From: Pirellulaceae bacterium
GTDB lineage: Bacteria > Planctomycetota > Planctomycetia > Pirellulales > Pirellulaceae
Assembly (NCBI GenBank): GCA_026004775.1
Contig: BPJU01000012.1
Location: forward strand, 62,001 to 126,000
Length of the DNA stretch: 64,000 nucleotides
Direction of reading: 5' to 3'
Shown: positions 1-54,367 of the stretch, piece after piece
Layout of the letters: each line of letters begins with the position of its first letter
Numbering within the stretch: the first letter of the stretch is position 1
The notes under the pieces: generated by a model
Seen by the model: only the letters and a program-made list of their open reading frames with translations
What the model was told of the DNA's origin: nothing
Database searches by the model: none
Position numbers and translations under genes: made by a program

Positions 1-3000
1 TCCCCAGGGATTTTCTTCGGGCTGGCCGTGGCGGGCTTCTTTCACAAGTACCGGCACGCGGCGATAGATCGCCTTGGTCAGCTCAGCGTCGGCACGCGAA
101 CGAAAAATAGGACACGTTCGCGTGTTGGGATTCAAAAGCGCGATGTCCTCCGGCGACAGACGAAAACAGCGATCCGGGTTCTTCAGTTCCGACGTATCAT
201 GCAAGAAAAACGCAAACTCCGCCCCGGCCCCCGATCCTTGCCCCACCGCCGCCATCGTCAACAAGCAGAATTTGTAGCTGCGGTGAACGCCGGGGAAAAT
301 CGCGCGGCGATTTTCAAAATCGTACAGGCTGGCCAGCGAGCGCTTTTCGATCAGGTCCTGGAAGAAAAACTTGGTCGTATCATCGGTGGCGATTCCCGAC
401 GGGACGATACAGCCAACTCGGCCGCGACGATTAACCAGTGATCGCTTAAGTTCGGCAAAAACCGCATACGTGTTGATGTCACCCCGACCACAAAGAGGAA
501 ATCGGCCACCGCCTCGCAAAAAGTTGCTCGCTGCCTCCGCAGCACGGAGCGCCTCGCGGTATTCAGCAAGCAACGCGGGATTGGTCTTGGGCAACTTGGC
601 GATCAATTCGTCTCGCTTCGCCTTGTTCGGGGCGTTGGCGATCTCGGGATCTCGAGAGGCGAAAAACTCCTTTTCCTGTAATTTCACTCGTTCCCACGGC
701 GGATTCCCCAGCACCACGTCGAAGCCGCCGTCGGCAAACACTTCCGGAAACTCCAGCGGCCAATGGAAGAAACGGTTCTTGAAGGCCAAGGTCTGCGCTT
801 GGCTCAGAGCTCGTGGGTCGATCGCACCGCCCGACAAATGCTCGGCCAAAACGTAAGTTGTGATATACCGGCCGTCATCGCCGGCAGCTTGGCCTTTGGC
901 CGAAGTAGCAGCCAAACGCTGAAAAAATGCGGCTGTCCACAAGTCGCATGCTTGACGCTGGCGCAGAGCGAACGAGGAATAGCGAGCACGCTCGTAGAGT
1001 TGTTTCTTGCGGCGGATCGATTCGGGAGAATCGTCGGCGATTTTGTCGAGTTCGCGTACCAGTTGGACAAGCTGGTCGGAGCCTTGCGACACATCGAATG
1101 AAATGCGCATTTGGCCTCGCTCCAGGTCGCGGCGCTCGGCCTTGTTCGCCGCCTTCAGACGCCGGGCGGTCTCCTTGTCGTCGCCCGCCAGCGGCGTGAA
1201 GGCCTCGTCGGGGATACCCTGCATGAGCACTTGCAAATCAAATACGCCCACCAGCGAATCACCACAGCGGATACGATGATCCAAAAAGGTGAGCGGTTTA
1301 TCGGACGTGTGTCCTTCCAGCCACAAGGCGACTCGGCACAGATCCACGGCCAGGGGGTTTTTATCCACACCGTAGATACAGTGAGAGATGACATCGCGGA
1401 TTGCTTCGCGTACGGGTTCCGGTGCCGGTTCGTCTTCACCCGTCCGCACGCGTGCCAGTTCTTTGCCCAATCGCCGCGCGGCGGCCAGCAGGAAGTGGCC
1501 CGAGCCGCATGCCGGGTCGCAAACACGCATCGACAGGATCGCTTTTTCTTTGGCATTATTGTCAGTACAGGACTTTAACCGATCTTCAAGCACCGGCTCC
1601 AGAGCTGACTTGATCAGTTCCCCCACCAGTTCGGGCGGCGTGTAATACGAGCCGGTGCTCTTGCGCTCCGAACCGGCCACAAATCGGTAGACGGGACGTC
1701 CGGAGCCATCGCATTCGACAGTCGGATGGAACTCCAGCAGGCTTTCGTACACCGAGCCGAGTTCTTCGGTGTCCAAGGCGGCGTAATTGACGCGGCGCGG
1801 CGGGCTGCCGTCCGTGTCGCGGTAGTAGGCCAGATGCCAAAAGGCGTCAAGCAAATCGCGGTTGGTGATCCGGCAATTGTCCAGGTCGACCGGCTCGAAC
1901 AACTCGCCGTTCAATACGGGCAGGCCGAGCGTGGACGCCAGCGGTTTTCCGCCTAGCTGCTGCACAGGCTGATCGTCGGCCAGCAGCTTCCATAACACGC
2001 GCAAGCTCAGCCAAAGATCGTCATGCTCGGTGTAGGCGGCTCGCTGGTCCACCAGCCGGCGCAAGCGGCCGATGCTGTAGTGTTCCCGATACAACGGATC
2101 GGTGCTCAGCACGCCCCGATCTTCAGCTACCATCAAAAAGAGAAACCGGTAGACCAGTCGCAGTAGTTGCCGGTACAGCTCCTCGGGAGCGATGCGGTGT
2201 GAATCCCCTTCCCGGGCTTGGACTCTGCGCCGCAAATCCTCGTTTTTCGGATGCCTCAGAAATCCGTTCGCCAAGCGCATGATACATTCTTCTACGCCGT
2301 CGCGCAGCCGATCGCGTACGCGGCCGCCCTGCTCTACCGAATGCTGGTAGTATTGCTCCAGCAGGCATTGGTGAGCATCCGCTTCCGATTGAGGCAGACG
2401 AGTGCGGTGCAGCAGGCGAAAAAGGACGGCAAAGTCCTGGAAGAGGCGCTGTTCCAAGATCGCTTCCAGGTCGAACTCCACGTAGCATTGCCGGCGGATG
2501 TAGGTGCTGTCGCGCAGCAGCCTCAGGGTCTTGCCGTTGGTTACCAGTCCCCACAGGGTTTCGGTCCGGTTCAAAAATTCCTGCACCAGGGAATGGGGAG
2601 CCAGGCGGGGCCGGCCACTGGGGGCTACGCGTCCCAGCTCCTGCCGCACACCGACAATGTGCACGGGTGGCGCGTACTCCGCGTCACCGGCTCGGTGTGA
2701 AACAGCAAAGCTCATCCCGCCCGCCTCATAGGCACGCCGGTTGTACTCCAACTCATAACCCAACAGCCCCAGAAACGGGATCACCCACGCGTCGCGGGTC
2801 ACGCTCGTGCCGAGGTCCGAGTCGGGTAAGTTCTGGAGCCGATGCTGGAATACCTGCCACAAGGCTCCCGCATCGGCGAACACACCGGCAATGGTATCGG
2901 TGAGGCTTCGGCGCGCCTTGACTTTGAAGTCACTCAGCTTCTGGCCAGGCAACTCCTCGGCCAGCAACTGATCAAAGAGATCCGGGGCAAACAGCCCTCC

Positions 3001-3030
3001 TTCAATCCGGACCGCAGGAAATGCCGTCAT
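1..3030 (-). CDS. drmMI: Eco57I-type adenine-specific DNA methylase, DISARM DrmMI-like (3' end outside window)
   Basis: Open frame of at least 1,010 codons running off the left edge. It is read directly from the minus strand because its stop lies outside the window. The SAM-binding motif DPACGSGHF starts near residue 505, and the adenine-methylase catalytic motif NPPWE is at about 776-780, followed by KLQEKEFF. Near the edge there is an NPDRCFRLSPEDI stretch and ENPWG, as in the long Eco57I/PglX-like methylases. Its ATG (3030) overlaps the stop of the upstream helicase gene as ATGA, so the two are probably translationally coupled. In DISARM class 1, the SNF2 helicase DrmD and adenine methylase DrmMI are encoded together with drmA, drmB and drmC; methylation marks self DNA. 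The drmABC core would lie to the left, unseen. Methylase identity is strong. The DISARM assignment rests on the pairing and could instead be another methylase-helicase defence module. Confidence 0.8.
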   Translation of the reverse strand, partial: MTAFPAVRIEGGLFAPDLFDQLLAEELPGQKLSDFKVKARRSLTDTIAGVFADAGALWQVFQHRLQNLPDSDLGTSVTRDAWVIPFLGLLGYELEYNRRAYEAGGMSFAVSHRAGDAEYAPPVHIVGVRQELGRVAPSGRPRLAPHSLVQEFLNRTETLWGLVTNGKTLRLLRDSTYIRRQCYVEFDLEAILEQRLFQDFAVLFRLLHRTRLPQSEADAHQCLLEQYYQHSVEQGGRVRDRLRDGVEECIMRLANGFLRHPKNEDLRRRVQAREGDSHRIAPEELYRQLLRLVYRFLFLMVAEDRGVLSTDPLYREHYSIGRLRRLVDQRAAYTEHDDLWLSLRVLWKLLADDQPVQQLGGKPLASTLGLPVLNGELFEPVDLDNCRITNRDLLDAFWHLAYYRDTDGSPPRRVNYAALDTEELGSVYESLLEFHPTVECDGSGRPVYRFVAGSERKSTGSYYTPPELVGELIKSALEPVLEDRLKSCTDNNAKEKAILSMRVCDPACGSGHFLLAAARRLGKELARVRTGEDEPAPEPVREAIRDVISHCIYGVDKNPLAVDLCRVALWLEGHTSDKPLTFLDHRIRCGDSLVGVFDLQVLMQGIPDEAFTPLAGDDKETARRLKAANKAERRDLERGQMRISFDVSQGSDQLVQLVRELDKIADDSPESIRRKKQLYERARYSSFALRQRQACDLWTAAFFQRLAATSAKGQAAGDDGRYITTYVLAEHLSGGAIDPRALSQAQTLAFKNRFFHWPLEFPEVFADGGFDVVLGNPPWERVKLQEKEFFASRDPEIANAPNKAKRDELIAKLPKTNPALLAEYREALRAAEAASNFLRGGGRFPLCGRGDINTYAVFAELKRSLVNRRGRVGCIVPSGIATDDTTKFFFQDLIEKRSLASLYDFENRRAIFPGVHRSYKFCLLTMAAVGQGSGAGAEFAFFLHDTSELKNPDRCFRLSPEDIALLNPNTRTCPIFRSRADAELTKAIYRRVPVLVKEARHGQPEENPWG

Positions 3031-5936
3031 GGTTTCACCATCGGTTGCAATATGAGAATGCCCAACAGATCCGGGGGTAATTGAGGATTAACTTTCAGCT
3101 CGCGAACGCGCAACCGCACTGCTTTACGAATGCGCTTGTGGCTGTTTTCCAGCTCTTGGGCTTTCTGGAAAATTTTCGTATTCACTTCACTCATGAAACC
3201 GTTTTCTTTGTTCGATTCCAGCTTTCCTTGTCTTACACCGAGTTCCTTGAAAACCATCTCTACCAGTTCGCGTTTTTCCGCGGTGGAGAGGTTTCCATCC
3301 GGTTTGGCTTCGGCCAGCAGGCGCATGGCCTCGTTATCCGGCAGCCACCGGTCCGTTGGTGTATTGGATGGGTGGCAGCCCAGGACGAGCACTTGTTCGG
3401 AGAGCATCGGTGGCTGTTCAGGGATTTCCAGCAGGTAGCGTACTCGCAGGAGCAGCAGGCTTGTGAGAAACCGCACGGCTCGCGTCCTGAGCACACCACA
3501 ACGGGAAGCTGCGGCATCTTTGCCTTTGGTTAACGCTTCTTCCAGCAGGTAGCGTGCCAAGGTTGCCACAAACGGGTGGTTGCGGCCCACGTATTCGGCG
3601 CCTTGGGGCGTGGGGGATACAAAACTGATGTGCCACGCCGGCGAGCTACGTTTGGTTGCGGATGCACGCGGTTCTGGAAGAGCCAAACGAATCGCGTCGG
3701 GCAAAGTAGTGACTGAGGAAAGGTCCACACAGTAGACATCGGGGCGGTGGAGCTCGGGTTGGATGGCCAATCCCAAGCGTTGGCCGGCGCTCAGCACAAA
3801 CTCGCACACGGCATCCGGGTCGCCGAGCACGGCGTCGGTGGCTTCCAATTCTCGTTGGACTTCTTCCGGTTTGATGGCCCGCTGGGCGAAGCGCGTCCGG
3901 TTGGTCCGTTCTCGTTGCGCGTCCAGATCCCAGCGTTTATGAAACTCTTGCAGTTCGGGGTTTTCATGAAAAAGCTGCAACTGGAGAGGTTGGGATTGAT
4001 CGTGCTGCCGCAAGAACAGCGAGTTGAGAACGGCCTCCATCACTGTCTCGCTTTCGTCGGGCACGGGAACATAGGTTCCCAAGACCCGGTGGATTTCTTT
4101 GGCCTTATCCAGCAGCACTTCGATGACGGCGCCGTCCACGGGATTGTCGCGGCCGTAAAAGCGCACCGCTTTTACCTGGGGGGAGGTTTGTCCGTAGCGG
4201 TCTACGCGTCCCTCACGCTGCTCGAGGCGATTCGGATTCCACGGCAGGTCGTAGTGGAGGACGGCGGTGAACTTTTCTTGCAAATTGATACCTTCGGAAA
4301 GGCAGTCGGTGGCTACCAGCACCCGTGGCCGGGTGGCGTCGATTTGGTCGATGATCGCCCGCCGCTCTTCATCGCCGATACGGCCGGTGATAGTTGTGAC
4401 CTGTACGTCGTCTGCCAAAGCGTTTTGGAGCTGCGTCGCGACATATTCGGCGGTGGCCACGTAACGGCACCAGATGATCGGGTAGAACTTCTCACGAAGA
4501 AGGTCTCGTACCACTTCGATGCACCGGGCGATTTTCGTATCGGTATTCGAGTCGCAGAGGGATTGTGCGAGTTGCTCCAGTCGGCGAAGACGCCGCTGGG
4601 CGCTGGCCGGCAGAATGGCTTCTGCTTGTTCGATCGGCGGTGTCGGGTTTTCGTCGTCGCTGTGGTCGTGAGCGTTTTCGAAGACCAACGGGGTGAAATC
4701 GACGCTTTCCTCATCGGGATGGGGAGCGGCGGATTCGAGGCGTTTTTTCAGGGCTGCCACGGCGGCAGCCGGGCTGGACATGACACAGCGCAACAGAGCC
4801 AGAGCGCCCCAGTAGCGTACCCGGCGTTTGCGCTCTTCCAGGTTCTGGCCGGTGCGGACAATTTCGGAACAAAAAGCAAACGTTTTTTCAAACAGCTCGC
4901 GATAGGTTTTTGACAGGGTGTAGGTTTCGTCCGTGCTGATTCGCTCCGGGAAGCAATGTGCGGCTTGCCAATCTTGTTCGATATCTTTTCGCGTGCGTTG
5001 GACAAAGTGGCGTGCCAGCTCTGCTCGGTCTGATTCGGCAAGTGAGCCGACGTTCAGTTGGCGGAAGTTGGGCTGTAACAGCCCCAGGAGGGAGCAGAAC
5101 GCGGCTTCCACCCCGCTGTGGGGCGTTGCTGTCAGGAGAATAAGGTGGCGCGATGGGTCCTGGGCGATTTCTCGCAGGAGCTGATGGCGCTGCTGCTGGC
5201 TTTTGTTGTGCGGGCTTGCTTCGGCGGCCCCGTGTGCTTCGTCGACAATCACCAGATCCGGGCAGAACTGCAAGAACTGGTGTTTGTTACGGTCGCTTTT
5301 GACCCAGTCGATACTGATGACTTGAATCGGATAGTATTCGTAAATGCTTTTATCCGCGGGTTTCCAGCGTTCCAGGCGGCTGATGGTACTGGAGCGGACG
5401 ATGACCGACTCGAGGTTGAACTTTTCGCGAAGTTCTTTTTCCCATTGGTCGCACAGGTAGGGCGGGCAGAGGACGGCCAGCCGCCGGATTTCGCCTCGAT
5501 CCAGGAGTTCTCGCGCGACCAGCAGGGCTTCGATTGTCTTGCCGACGCCCACATCGTCGGCGATGAAGAGCCGCACTGGGTCGAGGCGCAGGGCCATCAG
5601 GAGGGGGACGAATTGATAAACTCGGGGGCGAATCGAGATCCTTCCCAGGCAGCGCAGCGGTGTTGCCCCTTCGCGGAGGGTCAATCGAGCCGCCTGCCAC
5701 AGGAGAAAAGCGCTGCCGGCGTCCGACAGATCGTCGGGCGAGGGTGCGGGAAACTGTGACGGCTGGATGCGTTCTTCGGCCAGGGTGTACTGGACGAGTT
5801 TTTCAAGCTCCCGGTGAACGGCGACCACTTCGTCGATGGCACCTGTGAGCGGTCGCAGTTTGGCGGTTTTCGGGTCATCACTTGGCAGCAGCACCCAGTC
5901 TCGATCTCGAAAACGGACGATGCTTCCTGGCTGCAT
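3027..5936 (-). CDS. drmD: SNF2-family helicase, DISARM DrmD-like
   Basis: A 969-residue superfamily 2 helicase from ATG 5936 (MQPGSIVRFRDRDWVLL). An in-frame ATG at 5993 would add 19 residues of poor quality. Walker A is GVGKT at about residues 130-134, the DEAH box at 232-235, and motif III LLTATPHSG follows near 268-276. The C-terminal helicase lobe has the SNF2-style motif VI, LEQREGRVDRYGQ. The N-terminal RDRDWVLLPSDD segment is what I expect of DrmD-type proteins. In DISARM class 1 this helicase works with the adenine methylase and DrmABC to restrict incoming phage DNA in the cytoplasm. It is the first gene of a leftward operon and its stop overlaps the methylase start by 4 nt. It could belong to another SNF2-plus-methylase defence type, but helicase activity is well supported. 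Confidence 0.8.
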   Translation of the reverse strand: MQPGSIVRFRDRDWVLLPSDDPKTAKLRPLTGAIDEVVAVHRELEKLVQYTLAEERIQPSQFPAPSPDDLSDAGSAFLLWQAARLTLREGATPLRCLGRISIRPRVYQFVPLLMALRLDPVRLFIADDVGVGKTIEALLVARELLDRGEIRRLAVLCPPYLCDQWEKELREKFNLESVIVRSSTISRLERWKPADKSIYEYYPIQVISIDWVKSDRNKHQFLQFCPDLVIVDEAHGAAEASPHNKSQQQRHQLLREIAQDPSRHLILLTATPHSGVEAAFCSLLGLLQPNFRQLNVGSLAESDRAELARHFVQRTRKDIEQDWQAAHCFPERISTDETYTLSKTYRELFEKTFAFCSEIVRTGQNLEERKRRVRYWGALALLRCVMSSPAAAVAALKKRLESAAPHPDEESVDFTPLVFENAHDHSDDENPTPPIEQAEAILPASAQRRLRRLEQLAQSLCDSNTDTKIARCIEVVRDLLREKFYPIIWCRYVATAEYVATQLQNALADDVQVTTITGRIGDEERRAIIDQIDATRPRVLVATDCLSEGINLQEKFTAVLHYDLPWNPNRLEQREGRVDRYGQTSPQVKAVRFYGRDNPVDGAVIEVLLDKAKEIHRVLGTYVPVPDESETVMEAVLNSLFLRQHDQSQPLQLQLFHENPELQEFHKRWDLDAQRERTNRTRFAQRAIKPEEVQRELEATDAVLGDPDAVCEFVLSAGQRLGLAIQPELHRPDVYCVDLSSVTTLPDAIRLALPEPRASATKRSSPAWHISFVSPTPQGAEYVGRNHPFVATLARYLLEEALTKGKDAAASRCGVLRTRAVRFLTSLLLLRVRYLLEIPEQPPMLSEQVLVLGCHPSNTPTDRWLPDNEAMRLLAEAKPDGNLSTAEKRELVEMVFKELGVRQGKLESNKENGFMSEVNTKIFQKAQELENSHKRIRKAVRLRVRELKVNPQLPPDLLGILILQPMVKP

Positions 5937-6380
5937 GGTTTTTTTCCCGGCTAGTGGGGGCTTATGATTGCTGGACGTGCTTGGTGGCTCCAACGTACCT
6001 GGAACACCGCATGGACAGTCGTTTTCCCGATGCCCTTTGGCCCTTTATGCGATGGAATTGGGTTTTCGGGCGGGGTGTGCTACCGACAAGATTAAGATAG
6101 CGTAACGGTGGCGATGGTGTAGGGTGAGCCCGGATGAATCGCGGGCGGTGTTGGTGGCGGGTCGAGTAGCGGTTGGGGCAGCCGCCATGAGTGCCTGCCT
6201 GGCAGGGGGTGATGGGACTGTCCTGTGCGCTCTTGCTACGCAGCACGAGCGGTTGAAGAAGTCCGCCACGTTCCTCGACTGGGGCCAACGACGAGCGCAT
6301 GTTGAATAACCTGACCGTGTCGGAGGCAGGACTCATTATGAGCGTGGGCGATAATCCGACTCGCCTTTTTGAGAACGGAG
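5937..6380. other. Intergenic, no gene seen
   Basis: About 440 bp between the leftward exonuclease gene and the start of the helicase gene. No convincing frame, RNA gene or repeat was found. It presumably holds the promoter of the DISARM-like pair, but no clear -35/-10 was identified. Confidence 0.4.
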
Positions 6381-8117
6381 CTACTGGTCGTCGCGCAGGC
6401 TCTCGATCGGCCTCAGGGCGCTTGGGCGAGCCTTGGTTACTCCTCCGAGCGCCTTGAAGCACTCTTGAGGGTCCACTGTCTCAAGCCGCAAGTTGTGGTA
6501 TTGTTCCCGTGATGCCGTTAAACGGGCGAGCACTAACAGAGCGGGGTGTCCGGTGGCAGGATCATAACCTTCTACGGCGATGCGCACTTGAACCGCAGAG
6601 ATAAGGCGTGCCGTGTCAGCTACGAACATCTCATGGAGAGTTCGCAACACCAATTGGTATACCATATTATCATAAAGCCGGTTACGTTCCGAGGTGGGCA
6701 TGGGAACCTCTTTAACCGTCATTTCTTTCTTTAAAGGGCGGTAGCTTTTGACCTGGGGAATCACGTCCGGCCGTGGTGCCATTCTCACTACGGAGAGGAT
6801 ACGCGTTTCTGAGTCATAGCTCAAATGGCACGCGGTGGGAAAGTCGTCAGGAAGCTGAGACGACGCCAACGTCCGCATCATCGTTTTTTCCACGCACGCC
6901 GGATCGCCTCGAAAATAGCCTTCTTTTTCGGCACTAATATGCGAATTATGCTGCACGGCGTGGGCCTTGTATCGGCGCTGCCGTTCCTGGTAGGCTGCCA
7001 GTGCCTGCTGATATTCACTCCACCGCTGCTGATATTGTCGCTTGGCCAATTCTAGTTGTTCGCGATACTGCAGGACCAAAGCATTCCAGTGGGAGACTTT
7101 TTCGTTGTATCGGCGGACATCCGTCTCGTAAGCTTGTCGCGCTAATTGTCGCTTTTTTTCCAGCCGCCACGGAAACAGAGTATCTGCGACGTCAGCGGCT
7201 ACCTGGTACTTAGGGCTGTTTGGGTCAGGTCGTTCTTCAGGTCGCGGTTTCAGTTCAGCCGCGGGGGGATCGGGACGCTGTATCGTGGGGGCGGTTGGGG
7301 GAGGTTCGTCGAAGTCCAAAGGGACCATCCAGCGTCCCCAATCGAGGGGGGACGCTTTCTGCAGGCCGTTTACCAAAATAGACGTGATGGCTTCCAGGCG
7401 CCTCTGCAAGTCGTCATTCAACGTCGCGCAGGAAACTTGAAGCGACTCCCATTCTGTAGAGCTCGCCGTTTCCTGCTGTCGCGGCCGGGGAGTCCTGGGA
7501 GGCAAAGGCTGGCCATAATAGCGCACGAGGGAGTGGCGGCAGATGTGGTGGAATGTTGCCAGTGTTCCGTAGCCCGCCTCTCGCATCCGTCGTAAATACC
7601 GGTGTAGCAGGCATGCTGCCGCCAGGGCGTCATCTGCGGCACGATGGCCGTTACGGAAAGGCACCTTCATTTCGCGGCACGCCGTTTCCAACCTTCGGCG
7701 CGGCCGTGCCAGCAGCACCTGGCCCAACTCCATAATGCAAAGAGCCGGTAGCGACTCTGTGATACCGACACGCCCAAGCTCCGCCATCAAGAAACGCATG
7801 TCGAACGGAGCATTGTATGCGGCGACGAGCCTGTTGTTCAACGAGTCCATCAGCGGAATTACAATGTCAGCGAACCGAGGGGCATCCTGGACATCTTTGT
7901 CGGCAATACCATGAATTTCGGTAGCGCGCGGATCGATTGGCTGTCCGGGATTAATCAATGTTTGCAAGACGGTGACTGCACGTCCGAATCCGTCGGTGTG
8001 GACGACAGCTACTTCTACCACTCGATCGGTTGAGGCATCCAATCCCGTCGTTTCAAAATCGATCACCGCCACCGGAAGCGTTTCCAGAGGGCACGTGTGG
8101 AAATCACAAGTCGCCAT
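6381..8117 (-). CDS. DEDDh 3'-5' exonuclease (DnaQ/epsilon-like) with long coiled-coil C-terminal extension
   Basis: A 578-residue protein. ATG 8117 is chosen because AAGGGG lies 6-7 nt upstream; an in-frame ATG at 8204 would leave only 17 nt to the upstream gene. Residues 16-170 form an RNase T/DnaQ exonuclease. DFETTG (D20, E22) is Exo I, AAYNAPFDMRFL holds the second-block Asp, and HRAADDALAA supplies the His and Asp of the DEDDh signature. The middle (about residues 320-400) is a charged, Gln/Arg/Tyr-rich region likely to form a coiled coil. The rest has no recognised domain. DnaQ-like domains degrade or trim DNA or RNA from 3' ends, and the extension makes a plain proofreading subunit unlikely. 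It is the last gene of the operon with the RecQ-like helicase-nuclease and the tail-anchored protein, which suggests a nucleic-acid-targeting defence module. That role is inference. Confidence 0.8.
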   Translation of the reverse strand: MATCDFHTCPLETLPVAVIDFETTGLDASTDRVVEVAVVHTDGFGRAVTVLQTLINPGQPIDPRATEIHGIADKDVQDAPRFADIVIPLMDSLNNRLVAAYNAPFDMRFLMAELGRVGITESLPALCIMELGQVLLARPRRRLETACREMKVPFRNGHRAADDALAAACLLHRYLRRMREAGYGTLATFHHICRHSLVRYYGQPLPPRTPRPRQQETASSTEWESLQVSCATLNDDLQRRLEAITSILVNGLQKASPLDWGRWMVPLDFDEPPPTAPTIQRPDPPAAELKPRPEERPDPNSPKYQVAADVADTLFPWRLEKKRQLARQAYETDVRRYNEKVSHWNALVLQYREQLELAKRQYQQRWSEYQQALAAYQERQRRYKAHAVQHNSHISAEKEGYFRGDPACVEKTMMRTLASSQLPDDFPTACHLSYDSETRILSVVRMAPRPDVIPQVKSYRPLKKEMTVKEVPMPTSERNRLYDNMVYQLVLRTLHEMFVADTARLISAVQVRIAVEGYDPATGHPALLVLARLTASREQYHNLRLETVDPQECFKALGGVTKARPSALRPIESLRDDQ

Positions 8118-8221
8118 GTTTCGCCCCTTGCATGCCACCACGTGTGCACAGGATTCCACATTCGCTAGCACACTATTTTCATCTAATGTCAACAATATTC
8201 GCATCCGACGTTCAAGGCGTA

Positions 8222-8854
8222 TCACAACCGAGCGGCTGAGAAAATAAGATATCCCAAAAGCGCTAGCCCCAGTAGCTGGAGCAAAGCCAGCCCGAAACTG
8301 AACCATTTTATTCGATCGCGCAGCTTGGATATCGAGGCGTTAAGTTCCATTCGACTCCTGGAAACTGCGGCCATCATCGAGTCTCGACTAGCCGTGATCT
8401 GACCCTCGACGCCCTTGTACACCTCCTGTAATTGCTCGGCATTGGCCCGGTGATGGTGATTGACACAAGCTGAGATTTCTGCCGTTGCCTTGGAGAGTTC
8501 CTGTCTGCTGGTTTCGTTGAGTTGTCCCAGGGAACTGGTTACGTTGCGGACGGCGGTTTCGATGACCTGACGATTGGCTCGAATGGCCGATTCCAGCTGT
8601 TCTCCGGTCTTGGTGACAGCCGCAAGGATTTCTGATGTGCCGATGCTCCGTAAGGCGCGCGCTACCTCGACCTGTTCGCGGGAGAGCGTTTCCAATTGAT
8701 TGGCCAAATTGCTTAGGTGCGCCTGCGTTTGTTCCAGGCTGGTTCGTGCGGCGGCATACCCACCTACCTCGGCTTTCAATTTGATAAGGCTCTGCGTTAT
8801 TTCTCGTAGAGCTTTTTCGACGTCCATCAACTGTTTTGTGATTGGATTGTCCAT
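8222..8854 (-). CDS. Coiled-coil protein with C-terminal membrane anchor
   Basis: 210 residues, with no family recognised by name. From about residue 5 to 180 the sequence is heptad-rich and polar (many Gln, Glu, Leu, Ala, Ser), as in methyl-accepting or tether-type coiled coils. It ends in one hydrophobic segment (WFSFGLALLQLLGLALLGYL, about 185-204) and a very short tail, so it is probably a tail-anchored inner-membrane protein with its coiled coil in the cytoplasm. Its start lies 2 nt after the stop of the RecQ-like gene, indicating tight co-expression. A membrane-tethered coiled coil beside a helicase-nuclease and an exonuclease could act as a sensor or scaffold; this is inferred from context only. 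Confidence 0.7.
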   Translation of the reverse strand: MDNPITKQLMDVEKALREITQSLIKLKAEVGGYAAARTSLEQTQAHLSNLANQLETLSREQVEVARALRSIGTSEILAAVTKTGEQLESAIRANRQVIETAVRNVTSSLGQLNETSRQELSKATAEISACVNHHHRANAEQLQEVYKGVEGQITASRDSMMAAVSRSRMELNASISKLRDRIKWFSFGLALLQLLGLALLGYLIFSAARL

Positions 8855-8856
8855 CT

Positions 8857-11800
8857 TTAGGCTCCCAGGACTTTTTCCACACTATGTTTTGCGCGTCTGA
8901 GCAGGACCGTTACCGCGGGCAGAAGTCCTTCTTGTGGAAACGACTGCAGGATTATTCTTGCGACCCCGATACGTGACTTGAATGCTCTGAGGAGTGCGGT
9001 GGCGATGATATGCGCAAGCTGTGGCCGTTGGTGAGCGCAGAACGACGCGGCAACGAATACGCGCCGGAGTATCACTTTGTCGTCCAGGCCGTATCGCTCT
9101 CTGGCAAACCGCACGCCGGCGAGGATGTTGCGCGCTATAGTGTCCTCATTGGGCGTATCGCACAAAGCTTCCGCCAAGCCTCGCAAAACGCGCAAGCCGG
9201 GGTGATCGGGATAGGCCTCCAACGCCCGCCCGACCTCGCCCCGAACCCGTGCAGCGTCAACCCGAGAATTAATGCGCTGGATCAACGCCACGATGCGGCG
9301 CAACCCGCCGTCGACAGCCCGGGTCATTTCCGCGATGCTATCGGAATATTCTGTGGTACCCAAGTACTGAAGCAGCCGTCTGCGGAACTGGTCCTCATCA
9401 TGAGATTCTTCACAAATGGCCAGCATCTCGGCGAGTGCTTGCCTCCTACTTCTCTCTATCACCCCGTACACAAAATCGACGAGTTCCCGCGCGGCCGCAC
9501 GCACAAAATCTGTGAGCTGAAGTGGACGCAGTTTCTCGAGTCGCTTGCGAACCGCGCGCCCCTGTCCTACCTGATAATTGCTGACGTATCCTTCAATGCT
9601 TCGAATAATCGCTTCCCGGGAAGCACCAGCTACCTGTACAGAAAAGGTGCGGCTTGCATGATCAATAGTATAATCCGAGATGACTCCCATACACACCAAA
9701 CGATGTAGAGCTTGTTCTCGCTTCACACGATCCGAGTCCGTATAGGTGACTTGCAAAGAGCGCCTCGCTTCAATATCACCGATATTATCTAACAAGTCGC
9801 AGATAGCTTGGTAATCCGAGTCCGAACCGGAAAACGACTGGGTGTGGAACCACAGCATATTCACCACATCGTCCCGAGCCTCGGCAGGAATGGCCTGAAC
9901 CTCATGGTATAACTGATCGGCAGGTAGGGACGGGTCGAGGAGTCGTTTTGCACGAGCCGGGTTGTCATTGGAGAAGATCAGATAACACAACGACTGCTGC
10001 CCGTCCCGTCCTGCCCGGCCAGCTTCCTGATAGAATGCTTCGACACTTGGAGGGAGCGAGTAGTGGACGGTGTACCGGATGTTCGGTTTATCGATGCCCA
10101 TCCCAAAAGCCTTGGTGCAGACGAGCACCGGTATTTGATCTCGTTTGAACTTCAGGGCGACGAGCCGTCGTTGGTGTCGCCATTGTGTCTCTTGCCATCG
10201 GTGGGGCGGCTTTCCACTGTAAATGTCGGTGACGAGGTGGAGGGTGCGGCGGATTTTCTGTTCAACCGTCGTGATGCCGTATTCTCCATTGACCCACGGG
10301 CAGAACACCAATCCGCTGCATGTGTATTGGGAACGCGGTTGATAAAAAACCGAGGCGCTCAGCCCGAATTCTAAAGGTATTCCTTGCAAGATCCCACATA
10401 GAGTCGCAAACTTTTCGCGCGGTCGGCACGGCACTGTACGAAAGCGTAATTCAGGGCGATCGAAGGTGCGTGGCGTAATTACCGCATCATACTCGAGAAT
10501 TTCCAATTCGCGCTGGACGTCTCTCAGGACACTCCGGGAAGCCGTACCGGTCAAAGCCAGCAGCGGAGGTCTCTTGTTCCCGGTCCGGCAATACTCTTTG
10601 ATGATCCGGGCGATGTTCAGGTAAGCGGGTCGAAAGTCGTGGCCCCACTCAGATACACAGTGGGCTTCGTCTATGGCGGCTACAGAAATGCATGTGTACT
10701 GGCTAAGCGCGCGCAAAGCGCTACGGAAAGATTCATCCTGAAGGCGTTCAGGAGCAATGTAGCAGAAAAGGTACTCACCGCTCGACAGCACCTCGACTAC
10801 CCGATGACGATCTTCCGCATCCAGCAAACTTGTCACCTGGCAGGCACGATCGATTCCAATACGGCGCAAGTTATAAAGTTGATCTTCTATCAAGCTCAAA
10901 ATGGGGGCAACAACCAGCGCAATCCCCGGTCGCAGAAGCCCTGCCATCTGAAAAATGGCGGATTTGCCCGCACCTGTGGGAAGCAAAACCACGGCGTCCT
11001 GCCCCTTCAGCGCACGAACCAGTGACTCGTACTGCCCTTCGCGAAACCGGGCAAAGCCGTAGACGCGTTTCAGTAGGCGTTCACAGACTTGTCGGTCGGG
11101 GTGGGGCACGTCGGCTGGACCGCCGGTTGCTGTCAGGTCGGTGGCGATCGTAAAAGGCAAAAATATATCACGAACGAAGATTCGGCGATCGGGCGGCTCC
11201 GCATAGTGGGCGGTAAAGTCGACCACAAGGTCTGCAGTACTTTGATCGGCGTTGTGGAAGTGAGGCGATTCCGCTCCGTAGAGGCTGGCTACATCGCTCA
11301 ATAGTTCGTTGAAGTCATCCAGTATATGATCGACAATTGTTGTGGTATCCCAGCTCTCGGCTGCTTTGTCCCACAAAACCGCTACTTTCCAATCTTTCGT
11401 AGATGGGTTTTCCATGCCGCAGAAACGGAGAAAGTACCATAGCGCAAGCTGAAGCTGGTGGGCGCGACGGCAGACGTAAATAAACCGCGCTGTATCCGTG
11501 GGAACGACACTTGCCGCAGCACCACAGAGCAGACTTCTCAGTACGGACGCTTGGGGACCGTTTCCACGCCGGACCTCGTCTGCTGCGATTCGCAAGATGT
11601 CGAAGCCCAAGGACCGAAGCATGGTGTCCCTTTGACGATCTGCCACTATCGTTTGGCGATGCTGCACCCCATCGATCTCAATGACCAACTTCGGGCCGTT
11701 GGGAATACACATCGTGAAATCGACTCGGCTGGATAGCGGGGTATTCTGGGTAGCTTTGCCCACCAGCAGCTGTACCTGGCGCATCATCCAGGCTGCCGCG

Positions 11801-12438
11801 TCCGGGCCACAAACGGAAGGAAGATAGCGGTTGACAAAGAGTTCCTCCTCCAGGCTATCAAACCCTGATGCCCAGTGTGGCGTTGGCCGGCCCATGTAGC
11901 TCGCTTGAACAAGCACGTCGTTCAGCGGCTCTTCAGATCCGCAACTAACCCCAATCGCACGGCTTAGATTTTCCTCCAGAGATGGTGACAGGCACGTCAA
12001 CCGTCCCTTCTTCAGGATTTTCTCTGCCACGGTTATCCAGGTGGGGCAGCTTAACAACTTCGCGGGACGCTTTGGCATATCCAATTGCCATTGGCTAAGA
12101 GCTCGCACCAAGTCCGGCGGCACGTCAGTCAGAACGCATTGTTCGACAATACGGCGAGGCCCCGCACCACACTCCAGGTATACGGCGTCGGTGCACAAAC
12201 ACGCGGGTGAAGCAGGCAAACGTATCGGATCGAGAAAAACCCACGACGTGTCAGCATGGCCTTCATTCTCATTACCACTTGCCGGGACGACGGCCTTGCA
12301 CTTCGGATATTGGCTGCATCCCCAGAATGCTTGGCCAGCGAAACGTCCTTTCCCCGCCTTCCTCAATTGCATCGGGGCACCACACTGAGGACAAGTTGGC
12401 ACGCGTTGTTCAACTTGGTCGGTTTTGTTCATGGCCAC
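8857..12438 (-). CDS. RecQ-like superfamily 2 helicase with N-terminal zinc ribbon and PD-(D/E)xK nuclease domain
   Basis: 1,193 residues from GTG 12438 (GGGAG five nt upstream); ATG 12432 is an equally possible start. Residues 16-47 form a topoisomerase-type C4 zinc ribbon (CPQC ... GCSQYPKC). Residues about 236-292 look like a DUF559/Vsr-type endonuclease core: D240 in RVDF, EID at 254-256, VQH, then a conserved GFDILRI strand. The helicase begins at 461 with the RecQ-like GFARFREGQ. Walker A is LLPTGAGKS (485-493) and the DEAH box is at 590-593 in AIDEAHCVSEWGHDFRP, a RecQ hallmark. The second lobe ends with EAFYQEAGRAGRDG. The ~350-residue C-terminal region is unassigned; no HRDC domain is seen. 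Combining DNA unwinding and cutting in one chain points to foreign-DNA processing. It is first in a three-gene operon. Confidence 0.85.
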   Translation of the reverse strand: MAMNKTDQVEQRVPTCPQCGAPMQLRKAGKGRFAGQAFWGCSQYPKCKAVVPASGNENEGHADTSWVFLDPIRLPASPACLCTDAVYLECGAGPRRIVEQCVLTDVPPDLVRALSQWQLDMPKRPAKLLSCPTWITVAEKILKKGRLTCLSPSLEENLSRAIGVSCGSEEPLNDVLVQASYMGRPTPHWASGFDSLEEELFVNRYLPSVCGPDAAAWMMRQVQLLVGKATQNTPLSSRVDFTMCIPNGPKLVIEIDGVQHRQTIVADRQRDTMLRSLGFDILRIAADEVRRGNGPQASVLRSLLCGAAASVVPTDTARFIYVCRRAHQLQLALWYFLRFCGMENPSTKDWKVAVLWDKAAESWDTTTIVDHILDDFNELLSDVASLYGAESPHFHNADQSTADLVVDFTAHYAEPPDRRIFVRDIFLPFTIATDLTATGGPADVPHPDRQVCERLLKRVYGFARFREGQYESLVRALKGQDAVVLLPTGAGKSAIFQMAGLLRPGIALVVAPILSLIEDQLYNLRRIGIDRACQVTSLLDAEDRHRVVEVLSSGEYLFCYIAPERLQDESFRSALRALSQYTCISVAAIDEAHCVSEWGHDFRPAYLNIARIIKEYCRTGNKRPPLLALTGTASRSVLRDVQRELEILEYDAVITPRTFDRPELRFRTVPCRPREKFATLCGILQGIPLEFGLSASVFYQPRSQYTCSGLVFCPWVNGEYGITTVEQKIRRTLHLVTDIYSGKPPHRWQETQWRHQRRLVALKFKRDQIPVLVCTKAFGMGIDKPNIRYTVHYSLPPSVEAFYQEAGRAGRDGQQSLCYLIFSNDNPARAKRLLDPSLPADQLYHEVQAIPAEARDDVVNMLWFHTQSFSGSDSDYQAICDLLDNIGDIEARRSLQVTYTDSDRVKREQALHRLVCMGVISDYTIDHASRTFSVQVAGASREAIIRSIEGYVSNYQVGQGRAVRKRLEKLRPLQLTDFVRAAARELVDFVYGVIERSRRQALAEMLAICEESHDEDQFRRRLLQYLGTTEYSDSIAEMTRAVDGGLRRIVALIQRINSRVDAARVRGEVGRALEAYPDHPGLRVLRGLAEALCDTPNEDTIARNILAGVRFARERYGLDDKVILRRVFVAASFCAHQRPQLAHIIATALLRAFKSRIGVARIILQSFPQEGLLPAVTVLLRRAKHSVEKVLGA

Positions 12439-13158
12439 CAGTGCTCCCGAACAGACCTCAGTGGACTTCTCCTCTGGAGCGCCAGTCAGTCCATAGTATG
12501 GTGAAACACTCCAGGATTCATGCTGTGCTACTGCGCATGAATTTCAACGGAACTTGATGGACGCTGGTGAGCCCGGATTACGAAAGGCCGTACCGGCTCA
12601 ACGCGCTCAGCACCGTATAAGATACTCAGCGTCTGAGAGGGCCGTCAAACGATTGAATCGCGGGTGTGTCTGCTCGGCGACCTCACCACTCTATCCTGCT
12701 GATGGGTGCACCGACCGTTGCAAGTCAATCGCGGCACTCGCCGTGGTGCCAGCCCGGCTAACCGGACGACCTCTTCAGATAAACGATATCGAATGGCCAG
12801 GTGGCGGTTGATACCGGGGTACTCGTCCGGACACGTGCTTTCCATGTCTGCAAACGATAACGGGGCGCGTTCCTTCTCCGCTCGCGCTGGCCCAGGTTTC
12901 CAGACTGCATGGTTTCCTGGGCTCGCACAAACCGCGGAAAGCATCCCATCGCCAGGCGGGCAGGTATGGCTGTGTGGTGCCATGTCATGCGTGGGGGCCA
13001 GCCAGGGCCAAGCTGCACGGCCCGTGGAGGATTGGGTGCTCACCGCAAAGGCAGAGGGGCAGGGATTTTTAGGGATGCCCTGTCAGAATTTTGGCTCTCC
13101 GACCGTAAACAGTTCTATAGCGGGAATTCCGTTATCGCTGTCTGTCTTAGGAGGCATT
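12439..13158. other. Divergent intergenic region between RecQ-like operon and cmr scar
   Basis: About 720 bp separating a leftward from a rightward operon. The frame of the cmr1 remnant stays open upstream to 12706, but that stretch is compositionally non-coding and lacks RAMP features. No CRISPR repeats or other repeats were seen by eye. Promoters for both directions should lie here. Confidence 0.4.
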
Positions 13159-13917
13159 ATGCCACGTGAAGTTCCGGATGTGGCGACGAGTTGGGTTCCT
13201 CCTGCGCCTGCGCATCCGAAGCGCTGCCAAGAACTCGTGACACCGATGTTCGGCGGAGAAGTAGAGCCGTGGGCCAACGATCCCAATTTGCCGATCCGTC
13301 CCACCGCAATCCGTGGCCAATTCCAGTTCTGGTGGCGGGCGGCGGTCAGCGCCGCCTGTTGTACAAAAGACCCGTTGTGGGAAATGCAGAGTCAAATCCG
13401 GGGCAACGCGGGGCATGCCGGCCCGGTGCGGATTCAATTGGAGCTGCTTGGGTGCGGCGAACCCAGGCCCAGTGCGGAATTTCAACGTGACATGAAAGAT
13501 TCACGTCGCTGTCGATCGATGCCCTCCTGGAAAATGCCCTTTCAACGAACTGCTTTGCCGTACGCTTTGTTCCCGTTTCAGGGGCAATTGGCGGCCGACC
13601 GCCCGGCTGTTGAGATACAGCCGGCGGCATGGATCCAGCGTGGCCTGTTCAGGTTGAACATTCACGGTGACGATGGTGTGGACTATCTACGCCATGGTCA
13701 ACCGGCGCATTGGGGTTGGGTCAATTTGGGTGGTCTGGGAAGCCCCACGCGACGCGGCTGTGGAGCTATTCGATGCAATGCGCTAGCAGCCCGCAATAGT
13801 GACGAGCTGAAAAGACGAGATGCACGAAACAGGCCTGGCAGTTCGCGCTGGCGCGAACCAGAGACCATTCAAAGAATTATTCATCGAAGGGCTCTGTCAC
13901 TTGGGAATCGGAGGTAA
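13159..13917 (+). pseudogene. cmr1: Truncated type III-B CRISPR RAMP gene cmr1 (N-terminal part only)
   Basis: ATG 13159 is preceded by AGGAGG at ideal spacing. The protein begins MPREVPDVA and carries Cmr1 N-terminal hallmarks: LVTPMFGGEVEP, LPIRPTAIRGQFQFWWRA, and near residue 190-205 GWVNLGGLGSPTRRGCGAI, the glycine/arginine-rich RAMP loop. Cmr1 binds target-proximal RNA in the Cmr effector complex and normally runs to several hundred residues with a second RAMP fold. Here homology stops near 13800 and the frame continues only to the stop at 13915-13917, through sequence that in the +1 frame encodes the end of Cmr6. So a deletion has removed the rest of cmr1, everything between, and most of cmr6. 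No cas10/cmr2 is in the window. The fragment may still be translated but cannot form a normal Cmr1. Confidence 0.8.
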
Positions 13918-13978
13918 GGCAACCAGCGGCTATGGACGGTTTTGCAAGGTAAAGCGTATGTGTTGCCTGAAGCGATGA
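13811..13978 (+). pseudogene. cmr6: 3' stump of type III-B CRISPR RAMP gene cmr6
   Basis: In the +1 frame relative to the cmr1 remnant, the frame opens after a TGA at 13808 and reads ...RPFKELFIEGLCHLGIGGKATSGYGRFC... to a TGA at 13976-13978. The LGIGGKxxxGYGRF glycine loop followed by a short tail is the C-terminal signature of Cmr6, which normally ends the cmr operon. Only about 55 codons remain. The junction with cmr1 falls near 13800. The stop overlaps the ATG of the next gene (ATGA, 13975-13978), so the downstream gene was evidently coupled to cmr6 before the deletion. Confidence 0.7.
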
Positions 13979-16900
13979 ACGACGGTGAAAAATTTCCGAT
14001 GGTTGGGTGCTTTATGCTTTGGGAAGAACTCCTGCGGCAACTGGAACAGCTGCCTGATGATGCTAAGCAATGGGATGAAGTCGAGCGGTACCTTGATCGT
14101 GCTTTGGCGCATCTACGCGCCCGGCGTCAAAGGCTCGAGGAGCGTGGACGGTTGCAGGAATTATTGCAGAGGCTGGCCGACGAGTATGGAGAAGACCTGC
14201 GGTATTTTCAGTTCGACCGGGCGTTGGGGTGGATCGGTTCCGAACGACTCGCAAAGCAACCGGCTGCCGCGATAGAGGCACTCCAGGACCTCTTGGAACG
14301 GTTGCAAGCCTATCGTATGCATCGGTCTTCGGTGCCGAAGACGATGTCGGAATCGCGTCGACAACGGGATGAATTAACGGTTTTGGAAGAGACAATAACA
14401 TCTCTTTACGAAAGACTTGATGCGATTTTTGGACCAGGCATCGACGAAGGGGCAACCACTGTGCCGGCTGTCGAGTCAACGTCGACGGCAGAGGAACCGA
14501 GCGGTTTTGGAGGAGTTTCTTCATCTAGCGAGGTCCAAACTGTCGAGTCAACGTCGACGGCCGAGGAGCCGAGGGAGCCGTCCGGATCGCTCATTACCCC
14601 CGAGTCGCCGGCGGCGGGGAGAACAGATGAGTCGCTTGAACCGCCGACGAGTACTCGGGAGCCGTTACCGGAGGAAGAAGGACGCTCGGAGCCCGCCACA
14701 GTTTCGTCTGAGACAGAGGAGCGCGTTTCGCCGATCGCTCCCGAGTATGTGCAACCGGCGCCACCGGAATATCGGTTCTCGGCGGCGGATTCCAGCACGG
14801 AAATAGCTCGTGCCCTACTGCAGCTTAAAGCTTCCGTCAGAGTACCGTTCCTCCCCAACCTCATCTGGCGGTTGATTGGCGAGGGACGATGGGGATTCGC
14901 GTACTATTTGGCTCAATGGCTGAATGCCTCCGACCAGGGTTGTTGGCCATACGTGCCGGCATGGTTGATCCGAGCTTGTGTCAACGGACTACACGTGAAA
15001 AGTGCGTATGGCACTATGGCGACGTTGCTCAAGGAAGATTTCAGTTACCTGAGCAAAGGTTTGGTTTCTGGGGGGGATTCAGATTGGGGAGAAGCTGTCG
15101 GGTACTTGTTGGCTGCGGCGTCGTTGCGGCCCGCTTTGTTAGCTCCGGCGACCGGGGCATCCAGCGTCTTGCATGGCTTACACACTTCCCAGGGGCTTGA
15201 CCAACTATACGATTACTGTCGGCGCGTTGCCGAGTACGGCGACTTGGGCCATCCGCTGGATCCGACCACCCTAAAACAGATCAAGACCCGGGCAGCCTGG
15301 CAACGGGAGCTCGATGAACTTTACGGTGAGGTGGAGGCGTGGTATCAGCGAGCCCTGGGAATGACCATGGTGTATGCTCCTGCCAGCAAAGTGTGGCGAT
15401 TGTGGCTGAAGTCAAACGGCTTGATTTATAACTTACTGAAACCGCTTCGCCAAAAAGACGGCAGCCAGAAGGATGCGGTACTCCAGGAAGCCGACCGCCT
15501 TTCGGATCCGGCCGTCGTAGCGCGGGAGGTGCAGCGGCTGGATCGTCAGCTCCGACAACGCCGTAAAGACGACATAACAGCCAAAGCGCTAGGGCAACTC
15601 CAAAGCCGTACACGGGAGGCGGTTAACTTCGTTCGGCGGTGGGTAATGCTGTTGCAGTCCGATCCCTCCATTCAACGCCGATTCGTGCAAAAGCATGTAG
15701 ACGAACTTCGGATGCACTTGGCGCCTCGCCATGGGAAGGTCCTGGAGGAACTGGACTGCTTTGTTGTACAGGCGAAGAGTCCCATGGTCCTAGCGGCGTT
15801 GAGCGTGCTTCGCAAGGCAGTGGAAAGTGTGCGAGCCCTTTTTGATCCTGCGGAACCTTTCGATCCGGATGAACCCGATTTGCGGCAATTCCTCCAGTGG
15901 GATTTATTGCGCGTCGGCGGCATCCGCTTGGACGCACAGTGGGAACCTCATTCTCTCAACGACGAGGTGGTCGCACAGATAGTCGAGTACTTAGCCGACG
16001 GTGAGAGAAGTTGGCGGGATGCCTTTGACCGCTATTGCCAGGCGCTCGACCACGAGGGTACGTTGCGGGTGATTGGCGTTTTAGAGACTATTGCGCCAGC
16101 GACATCTGAAACCGATCGCCTGCGGCAACGCCGGGACGCTGAAGTTGAGCAATGTAGGCAAGCCCTAAGTCGCGATATCGAGAATACGAGATTCCAGATT
16201 GAAGAAGCCGTCGCTCTTGGACTATTGCGGGAACAGGAGCGTATCGGATTTTCTCGAATTGTCGATGCAGTGGAAATTGCCGCAACCGACGCACTTTACT
16301 TTCCTGATTTACACCGGCATCTGCGCGAGGTTCGTGACAGAATTGCAGCGCAGGAAAAACAGGCGGAGCAGGAGGTAACCCGACGTCTGCGCGAATCAGG
16401 GTTAACGGTCAATCATCCAGCCTATGTTCGGATCGAAAATGCCATCAGAGAGCGTGACTATTTTACCGCGCACGAGTATATTGACATGGCGCTCCGAGGT
16501 GATGAGTTGCCGGGAGTAGAAGAACGCCGTGAAGTGCTGCGGGAATTTCTTGATTGCTTTTCAGCTATTGAAAACTACTTGATTGCCGCTGAAGCCCGCG
16601 CTAGCGGTCTGAACCGTATCATGGACGACATACAGTCCAACAGGGATCTGGGGCCTGTAACCTTGCAAAGGGTTCCTGGTGCGCAAAAGAAGGAAGCAGC
16701 GCGCATGGTTAGGACATGGTTTTCGGCTAAGAACGATTACGGTATCACGCATGATGCTATCAAAACAATTCTGGAGTGCTTGGGTATGCCCGTGGTCCGT
16801 CTTGAAAAGAATGGTTCAGCAAATCGTTTGTGGTTTGACGTTCACACAGAACGCATAGCCGATCGCGATTTCTGTCCCGTGCCGGGTTATGGCTCTCAAG

Positions 16901-51671: not shown

Positions 51672-51955
51672 GTAACCGTTCACGGTTGGTTAGCAGCAAC
51701 CGCGGCTGGCTGACCGGTGTGCAGCGCTATCGCCTCAATGCGCGCGAGCTCTTTCTGGTTGTTCAACTCCCATGGTAATGGCGAAAAGATAAAAGGGGTC
51801 AGAATAATACACTATTTTTTCCACAATCATTTTTCTGCCGAGTGCCAAGACTATCCACAGCAGAGAAGGCGCCGGGTGTTCGCCAAACCGGTGCTTCACC
51901 GTCTGGGATAAACAGTCGAACGACCTTGCTGGTTTCAAGTGGAAAACCCTATTCG
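51672..51955 (+). repeat. Dispersed ~280-bp repeat, copy 2
   Basis: Follows the ASPIC/UnbV stop codon directly and begins GTAACCGTTCACGGTT. It aligns along most of its length with 26259-26540 at clearly more than half of positions, with long identical blocks. It ends next to the cap of array 2. Confidence 0.8.
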
Positions 51956-51976
51956 TTCTCCCCCTTTAGGACGCAC

Positions 51977-53165: not shown

Positions 53166-53466
53166 ACGAGCGCGTCGTTATTGACGCGCCAGCAGCGGGC
53201 TGATAAGTCGCGTTTTTTGCAGCCCAGGCCGGCGGACTGGGTGAGAGAAACCGTACGGCGGATTCCCTCGAGGTGCGTGTAGCCAGGTGGCCGGTTCATA
53301 CATTTCCGTTCATTCTGTGACCGTGAACGGTTTCCGGATTAGTAACCCGATAGTTCGTTCGGCCGGGAGTGCAGGTGGCTGTCGTTATTCGCCAGCAAGC
53401 GGGAACAGTTCCACTCGGCGAAAGAAAATTTCGGAACCCTCGCATTATGGCACGCGATCGCTCTTT
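53166..53466. other. Intergenic with palindrome
   Basis: About 300 bp between array 2 and the lipid kinase. It holds CTGTGACCGTGAACGGTTTCC near 53315-53335, an inverted form of the AACCGTTCACGGT palindrome that opens repeat copy 2. No gene was seen. Confidence 0.45.
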
Positions 53467-54345: not shown

Positions 54346-54367
54346 CGAGAAGCTCCTTTGCCCGAGT

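Follow-up and report, generated by a model that had tools for sequence, protein, structure and literature searches.

DprA-like proteins keep phosphoribosyltransferase (PRTase) or RecQ-PRTase toxins in check in RqlHI and its relatives, according to the available text of two reports (PMC4670107; PMC9122126). The Hachiman proteins HamAB couple a helicase to a nuclease and, as the accessible part of their description has it, could sense and cut aberrant DNA (PMC12278908). ARMADA is defined by YprA, BrxHII-like, and PglX-like genes, and phage protection is reported for an Escherichia coli ARMADA Type II system, both as given in the available text of that report (PMC12458937). Here, we analyzed a 64,000-nt stretch from a Pirellulaceae bacterium (assembly GCA_026004775.1, contig BPJU01000012.1, positions 62,001 to 126,000; the whole stretch is called the window) in which three minus-strand open reading frames at 6,381 to 12,438 encode a RecQ-family helicase, a coiled-coil protein (the coil), and a DEDDh exonuclease. 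These are real genes, but as three they are not one conserved system; RecQ and the coil are. We put the probability at about one half that the conserved unit is a horizontally mobile two-gene module, a membrane-tethered helicase-nuclease acting on foreign DNA.

No model in PADLOC-DB 2.0.0 or NCBIfam matched the window RecQ across the whole protein, in agreement with an earlier note, made from the sequence alone, that had recognized no named system at this locus; the best stretches lay within the helicase or, for the exonuclease, the DEDDh half. RqlHI, PsyrTA, and ShosTA resemble the family in the RecQ core, and HAD, PRTase, and DprA parts stand next to family members in E. coli and Deinococcus or form fusions with them. 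The window RecQ instead has a DUF559 domain, a different C terminus, and a tail-anchored coil. It has no PRTase match in Pfam at 0.1, the best stretch of its PsyrT match is the helicase, and no DprA is adjacent, its neighbors being the coil, the exonuclease, a Cmr1-like RAMP, and DrmD. Dpd is similar in that DpdF, a RecQ-like helicase, is the best PADLOC match of the window RecQ (2.3e-91) and a neighboring protein matches DpdE. However, the DpdF match is best within the helicase and, at 168.9 bits against an NCBIfam cutoff of 550, falls short of a full-length match; no 7-deazaguanine genes turned up among the neighbors scanned, in scans not aimed at them. The window proteins also differ from those of HamAB, which to our knowledge has no membrane tether. 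Downstream of the trio, and on its strand, lies an ARMADA operon, and RecQ-coil precedes ARMADA both here and in Thermus thermophilus plasmids, but the ARMADA gene set excludes RecQ, the coil, and the exonuclease.

In full-text searches of open-license PubMed Central articles (supplements excluded), no paper combined RecQ with DUF559. Within the text so covered, the pair was likewise undescribed under RecQ or related terms with coiled coil, membrane anchor, DISARM, defense island, PsyrTA, or PRTase, and the main text of DefensePredictor contained no RecQ. The RecQ-coil pair is therefore apparently undescribed, and a description elsewhere is possible.

A RecQ helicase and probable nuclease paired with a coiled-coil gene

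The window RecQ carries Zn_ribbon_Top1, DUF559, DEAD, and Helicase_C domains, all above Pfam cutoffs. They are arranged as a zinc ribbon (residues 15 to 52), a Vsr/DUF559-like nuclease (~214 to 303), the helicase (~450 to 840), and a family-specific C terminus (~860 to 1193) that is helical and of its own kind. The core scored 261.9 bits with TIGR00614 (cutoff, 219.8), placing the protein in the RecQ helicase superfamily, with TGAGKS as Walker A and DEAHCVS as the DEAH motif. The nuclease motif reads DF..EIDG.QH, and an endonuclease-like protein (PDB 3hrl) matched residues 214 to 303 at 6.2e-7. The AlphaFold (AF2) model was good (predicted local distance difference test [pLDDT], 83.5; predicted template modeling score, 0.81), and its core matched solved RecQ structures in Foldseek and VIA-align. 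The VIA-align match to 7a8r had a Z score of 28.1 and a root mean square deviation of 3.8 over 387 aligned residues; such alignments mainly covered model residues 445 to 1032 and barely covered the remaining parts. A profile of the C terminus found nothing beyond chance in the PDB except the common helicase motif (best E, 0.0082).

Family membership was set by this C-terminal profile (A3) at a score of at least 40 bits (35 loci), plus three distant members (L097, L101, and L268). The window RecQ scored 401 bits, a match by construction because the window is one of the 16 rows of A3. Genome-scan loci were the 80 of 589 most similar to the window and hence a nonrandom draw; loci L262 to L271 were chosen otherwise, by profile only, and L261 was left out as a duplicate of the Rhodothermus marinus locus L092. 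A coil gene follows RecQ in all 38 family loci read, window included: a membrane helix is present in 32 coils and absent from 5, and the contig ends within the remaining one (L269). The profile-only loci have it in 10/10 cases (7 with the helix, 2 without, 1 cut). In L096, a transposase separates RecQ from the coil gene, whose product has a membrane helix, and in L264 a broken RecQ frame is followed by a coil protein without one. The two genes frequently overlap (−4, −8, and −23 nt), by a measure that takes the first start codon up to 40 nt ahead of the RecQ end and is biased toward overlaps.

An automatic rule for coils (G+P+C+W+H+F+Y of at most 0.15, relaxed from 0.10 after sequences slightly above that value had been inspected) assigned a coil with a C-terminal membrane helix to 29/35 family loci, a coil only to 4, and neither to 2 (L096 and L264); at the stricter 0.10, coil and helix were found in 20/35. 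As background, 37/3284 six-frame open reading frames of 90 to 450 aa from the same loci, partners included, passed at 0.15 and 23/3284 at 0.10. Among generic RecQ loci with room for a partner, a coil was present in 1/71 (L147, 95 aa), a count made after the three distant members had been moved to the family. Before the move there were 81 generic loci, 74 with room, among which L101 and L268 passed as coil with membrane helix and L097 and L147 as coil only. The three were moved once their coils had been seen. Grounds independent of the coil are an A3 match of 1.3e-13 for L268 (to which the script assigned no score), the position of L101 as sister of L268 in the helicase tree, and, for L097, grouping with L095 and L096 in that tree and an A3 score of 32.9 bits. 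The pairing of RecQ with a coil exceeds chance (38/38 versus 1/71).

The window coil is low in glycine, proline, and aromatic residues. Its most hydrophobic 19 residues stop five residues before the C terminus; across the 32 coils with a membrane helix, the helix ends 0 to 7 residues from the C terminus, and the 12 residues preceding it contain in total 93 K/R versus 34 D/E. Given this excess of basic residues and the short stretch behind the helix, the coil should be cytoplasmic and tail-anchored. In PADLOC and NCBIfam, the coil protein matched solely models of other coiled-coil proteins. In three coils without a helix (L179, L183, and L264), the C terminus is a short tail, basic or aromatic (GVFRKKRTK, GIFFSWK, and LWKGLFGRRKR, respectively), which perhaps provides a weaker membrane contact.

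In a tree of the helicase core, one branch with 100/100 support separated 35 family rows from 29 generic RecQs; 3/38 family proteins, not read by the script, are absent from it. The window RecQ groups with L178 at 99/91 (helicase core only), and hosts of different phyla are intermixed within the family clade. Among the best 80 of 589 matches in the GTDB scan, near-full-length RecQ relatives occurred in metagenome-assembled genomes labeled Bacillota, Phycisphaerales, Opitutae, Proteobacteria, and Chloroflexi, and further relatives occurred in records labeled Bacteroidota, Balneolota, Actinomycetota, and Latescibacterota. As the records are labeled, the pair spans about a dozen phyla. A3 gave exactly one match per genome in 11/11 genomes, 8 of which had supplied A3 rows. 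In evenly drawn phylum samples it matched 9/247 genomes (phylum of L186), 3/251 (L184), 1/249 (L181), and 2/246 (the window's own); these counts include the seed genome in each case and, for one of the 9, the known R. marinus record, and they are lower bounds since distant members escape. The nuclease motif DF..ExDG..H was kept in 25/35 family RecQs (the script read 35/38). Two family RecQs of >1700 aa (L098, 5838 to 11051; L193, 7856 to 13096) have a degenerate nuclease motif and a weak methyltransferase-like N terminus under the Pfam cutoff.

Family RecQs are found on plasmids of Rhodothermus, Salinibacter, Thermomicrobium, Thermus, Deinococcus, E. coli, and Klebsiella. In a tblastn search of plasmids, a small coil protein ending in a membrane helix came after each of the RecQs from Rhodothermus, Salinibacter, Thermomicrobium, and E. 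coli. A tblastn search of phages with RecQ matched 26 records; among the 20 listed, the helicase part alone matched. On two E. coli plasmids (NZ_CP086388.1, 45431 to 50823; NZ_MG516909.1, 54735 to 60127), the long RecQ match is split in two, and the annotation places an IS1 transposase under it.

The exonuclease, the ARMADA operon, and other partners

The earlier note had read the three genes as one operon. Much of its description holds: helicase and nuclease domains lie in a single protein, a tail-anchored coil adjoins RecQ, and the frames, on one strand, are separated by 2 nt and by 104 nt (17 nt with an alternative exonuclease start). As a recurring unit, the reading stands for RecQ and the coil, which are together in 38/38 family loci, and fails for the exonuclease, which is present in 0/37 other loci and mostly occurs apart from them. 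The longest exonuclease frame is 6381 to 8306, with further starts at 8204 and 8117. We took 8117 (the 104-nt gap; 8204 gives 17 nt) because the ATG there has AAGGGG upstream at Shine-Dalgarno spacing and lies just ahead of the DEDDh domain. A promoter and terminator scan yielded site counts within the spread of shuffled sequence, with no excess, and found no minus-strand terminator-like site in either gap; the exonuclease may or may not be cotranscribed with the pair.

The exonuclease matched RNase_T in Pfam at 2.1e-25, and the DEDDh motifs were recognized by eye. A coil follows, and then a C-terminal domain common to Mrr-type type IV restriction enzymes. PADLOC models matched both halves (PDC-S48, 7.2e-54 over residues 17 to 223; mREase_IV, 7.7e-29 over 272 to 573). 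PDC-S48, a single-gene candidate, has the DEDDh half in common with the window protein, but its match was limited to model positions 7 to 211 of 411 (13 to 182 of 512 for a second model) and is not full-length. Mrr type IV enzymes end in Mrr_cat, whereas the window protein has the common C-terminal domain with DEDDh in place of Mrr_cat. That domain precedes Mrr_cat in 4/5 relatives from the phylum; Pfam found no Mrr_cat in the window exonuclease or in the fifth relative. Locus L070 (9130 to 10395, plus strand) encodes a 421-aa protein with the domain and no Pfam match, hence neither DEDDh nor Mrr_cat, indicating that the domain also stands alone. The single-sequence structure of the exonuclease (pLDDT, 41.6) was not used.

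Neither half of the exonuclease matched any of the 37 other family loci (E up to 1e-6), nor did a DEDDh profile, and 28/37 of these loci have at least 3 kb after RecQ. Within the phylum, 23/294 genomes matched the exonuclease at 1e-20, and all but the window's own covered one half only; within the family Pirellulaceae, 3/149 genomes matched at 1e-25, the other two in the DEDDh half only. None of 2744 plasmid records with an exonuclease match covered 80% of it, and a viral scan with the exonuclease found nothing. The exonuclease was therefore rejected as a third conserved member; it is a local addition outside the conserved pair. Two possible counterparts were rejected: a Thermus "3'-5' exonuclease" in ARMADA locus L272 has no similarity, and an RNase H-like gene upstream of RecQ in R. 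marinus (P0010) seems to belong to a different family and stops 1.2 kb short of RecQ.

Table 1. Features in and beside the window (window coordinates unless stated)
Feature	Position	Strand	Length and evidence
RecQ-family helicase	8857-12438	−	1193 aa; Pfam, motif, AF2 model, structural matches
Tail-anchored coiled-coil protein	8222-8854	−	210 aa; position after RecQ, composition, C-terminal transmembrane segment
DEDDh 3'-5' exonuclease	6381-8117	−	578 aa; RNase_T, PADLOC, C-terminal domain common to Mrr-type enzymes
DrmD/BrxHII-like SNF2 helicase, first ARMADA gene	3027-5993	−	PADLOC, Thermus identity
PglX/DrmMI-like methyltransferase, second ARMADA gene	1-3030, past left edge to ~-455	−	1161 aa
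YprA-like helicase, beyond window	contig 49954-55173 (~-12046 to -6827)		DruE match, MZB domain
Cmr1-like RAMP frame	12706-13917	opposite to RecQ	RAMPs, Cmr1 matches
Protein with central AAA ATPase	13942-19314		1790 aa; Pfam

Downstream of the trio on the same strand are a DrmD/BrxHII-like helicase, a PglX/DrmMI-like methyltransferase, a 207-aa frame, a TPR protein, and a 1739-aa YprA/DruE-like helicase (Table 1). The earlier note had called these neighbors DISARM-like; we replace this assignment with ARMADA, whose defining genes these are. DISARM is characterized by separate DrmA and DrmB genes with DrmC; here, one YprA-like protein has a DruE match (1.5e-89) far exceeding its DrmA match (4.6e-12). 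Its MZB domain (1.2e-06) is above the cutoff, giving it the MrfA-type zinc-binding feature of ARMADA. This YprA-like helicase shares 48% identity with its Thermus counterpart across 1687 columns. A whole-protein Pfam scan found no nuclease on it, no search having been aimed at a C-terminal Vsr domain. The DrmD/BrxHII-like gene, 45% identical to the copy on Thermus plasmid pAA1-1b, matched DpdE (4.9e-188), DrmD (5.5e-97), and BrxH (6.2e-63) in PADLOC and scored 359.6 against the NCBIfam DrmD cutoff of 610. The methyltransferase matched Eco57I/N6_Mtase in Pfam and DrmMI at 2e-89. It is split into 1161- and 214-aa frames (contig 61545 to 65030 and 60798 to 61442; window −1202 to 3030), the latter matching the C-terminal part of the Thermus methyltransferase; it is possibly a broken gene, and the window's ARMADA copy may be inactive. 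On the other side, the "Cmr scar" of the earlier note is a lone Cmr1-like RAMP adjoining RecQ (RAMPs, 5.4e-09; Cmr1, 5.1e-12), and the 1790-aa AAA protein beyond it had no PADLOC match at 1e-8.

On T. thermophilus pAA1-1b (L096), the order is RecQ, transposase, coil gene, small frame, and ARMADA genes, the last 45 to 49% identical to those of the window. The two ARMADA associations look independent, because the Thermus RecQ is a deep family branch without the nuclease motif. On Deinococcus plasmid pDrdI (L097), a distant MrfA-like helicase with a C-terminal PRTase and a weak HAD match stands beside RecQ and the coil, with a HAD-DprA fusion on their other side; the helicase-PRTase, RecQ, the long coil, and HAD-DprA form one tight run (4809 to 15170). 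On an E. coli plasmid, a HAD-like region resembling that of Deinococcus and, by eye, a PRTase motif stand ahead of RecQ in one fused protein, and a DprA gene precedes it. HAD and PRTase seem to shuffle between helicases. The DprA proteins of both plasmids match ShosA/PsyrA. The family adjoins ARMADA in two distant lineages and ShosA/PsyrA-type DprA in two. Within the Thermus ARMADA operon of L272, an NYN-domain gene (21519 to 22232, minus strand) is annotated between the helicase and methyltransferase genes.

Competing explanations

Several observations weigh against a membrane-tethered helicase-nuclease acting on foreign DNA. Tethering cannot be universal, as five complete coils (L179, L183, L270, L264, and L097) lack the membrane helix. 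Most coil proteins are not demonstrably homologous by sequence: a profile of 10 coils found 8/27 others above the best shuffled decoy, the rest being indistinguishable from decoys, and with homology limited to these few, partner identity rests on position and form. The nuclease motif is missing from 10/35 RecQs read, including the deep-branching L095 to L097 and the degenerate L193 and L098. Defense genes around the pair are suggestive and, counted by protein, not strongly different from controls. At 1e-25 in PADLOC, we compared 112 neighbor proteins from 33 family loci with 112 of 127 listed control proteins. The family neighbors matched 68 models, the 25 of these 68 that are listed standing for roughly 8 proteins, and two entries are ARMADA genes of L096, substituted manually for its coil gene and a shadow frame; the controls matched 2 models, in 4 and 1 members (at most 5 proteins). 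Finally, we infer both the binding of the coil to RecQ and protection against phage.

RecQ helicases are mostly repair enzymes, and the RecQ-nuclease could instead serve mobile elements by repairing or restarting their forks, kept at the membrane alongside the replicon. Several copies on plasmids near replication or partition genes, together with the weak enrichment, fit such a maintenance role, which the very patchy distribution, the mixing of phyla in the tree, and the ARMADA and DprA/PRTase partners make unlikely overall. Alternatively, RecQ might sense phage DNA and the membrane-anchored coil might be the killer, oligomerizing and breaching the inner membrane in abortive infection. The C-terminal helix in 32/38 loci would suit this, as would the toxin-like nature of RecQ/PRTase relatives, which according to the available text of PMC4670107 are restrained by a partner with a DprA-like region. 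However, the pair is kept where five complete coils have no helix, and the nuclease motif in 25/35 RecQs is a more obvious effector, leaving us to consider a coil toxin distinctly unlikely.

The pair might also be an accessory of ARMADA that works only with it, which would be compatible with the other readings. RecQ, the coil, and ARMADA share order and strand here and on pAA1-1b, and six near-identical Thermus plasmid records (pAA1-1b included) cover at least 80% of the stretch. Such dependence is nevertheless improbable: among the 37 other family loci, several with short flanks, only L096 has ARMADA genes, L097 having a distant MrfA-like helicase; in a gene table that is incomplete, no RecQ is listed next to the ARMADA genes of Thermus L272 (the whole set) or of L273 and L274 (helicase and methyltransferase within the part read); and "RecQ" occurs 0 times in the main text available for the ARMADA report (PMC12458937). 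A dedicated three-gene system including the exonuclease is suggested by the shared strand, the short gaps, and the lack of terminator-like sites within them, but is equally improbable, being mostly refuted as a conserved unit by the missing DEDDh match in the other family loci and by an exonuclease architecture seen once in 294 phylum genomes.

A possible membrane-bound immune module

The domains of the module, its clade, the near-invariant pairing, the C-terminal membrane helix, and the scattered distribution are all read from sequence. Together, the fixed pairing, the start-stop overlaps, and the membrane tail suggest a complex of the coil with RecQ at the inner membrane. In the two-gene membrane-tethered module that we favor, the coil would bind RecQ and keep it at the inner membrane, to engage foreign DNA as it enters or replicates there. 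RecQ would then unwind 3' to 5' while the nuclease nicks or cuts, and the foreign DNA would be destroyed or its replication blocked. In the window genome, the exonuclease could degrade the 3' ends produced. The module is probably antiviral, a defense role that we infer. Its ARMADA partners in Thermus and its HAD, PRTase, and DprA partners on the E. coli plasmids and in Deinococcus suggest a nucleic-acid-handling core that serves different defense systems.

We tentatively propose, at somewhat below even odds, an undescribed family of immune modules in about a dozen phyla, in which a RecQ helicase-nuclease, anchored in the inner membrane through a tail-anchored coil, attacks DNA at entry or replication and has been recombined with ARMADA, PRTase-HAD-DprA, or a DEDDh exonuclease. 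The fixed partnership of RecQ and coil across those phyla, in changing surroundings, speaks for a physical complex located at the membrane, and the pair is a defined two-gene target for testing. If true, the use of RecQ, a standard repair enzyme, as a mobile weapon bound to the membrane would connect repair helicases with immunity at DNA entry.

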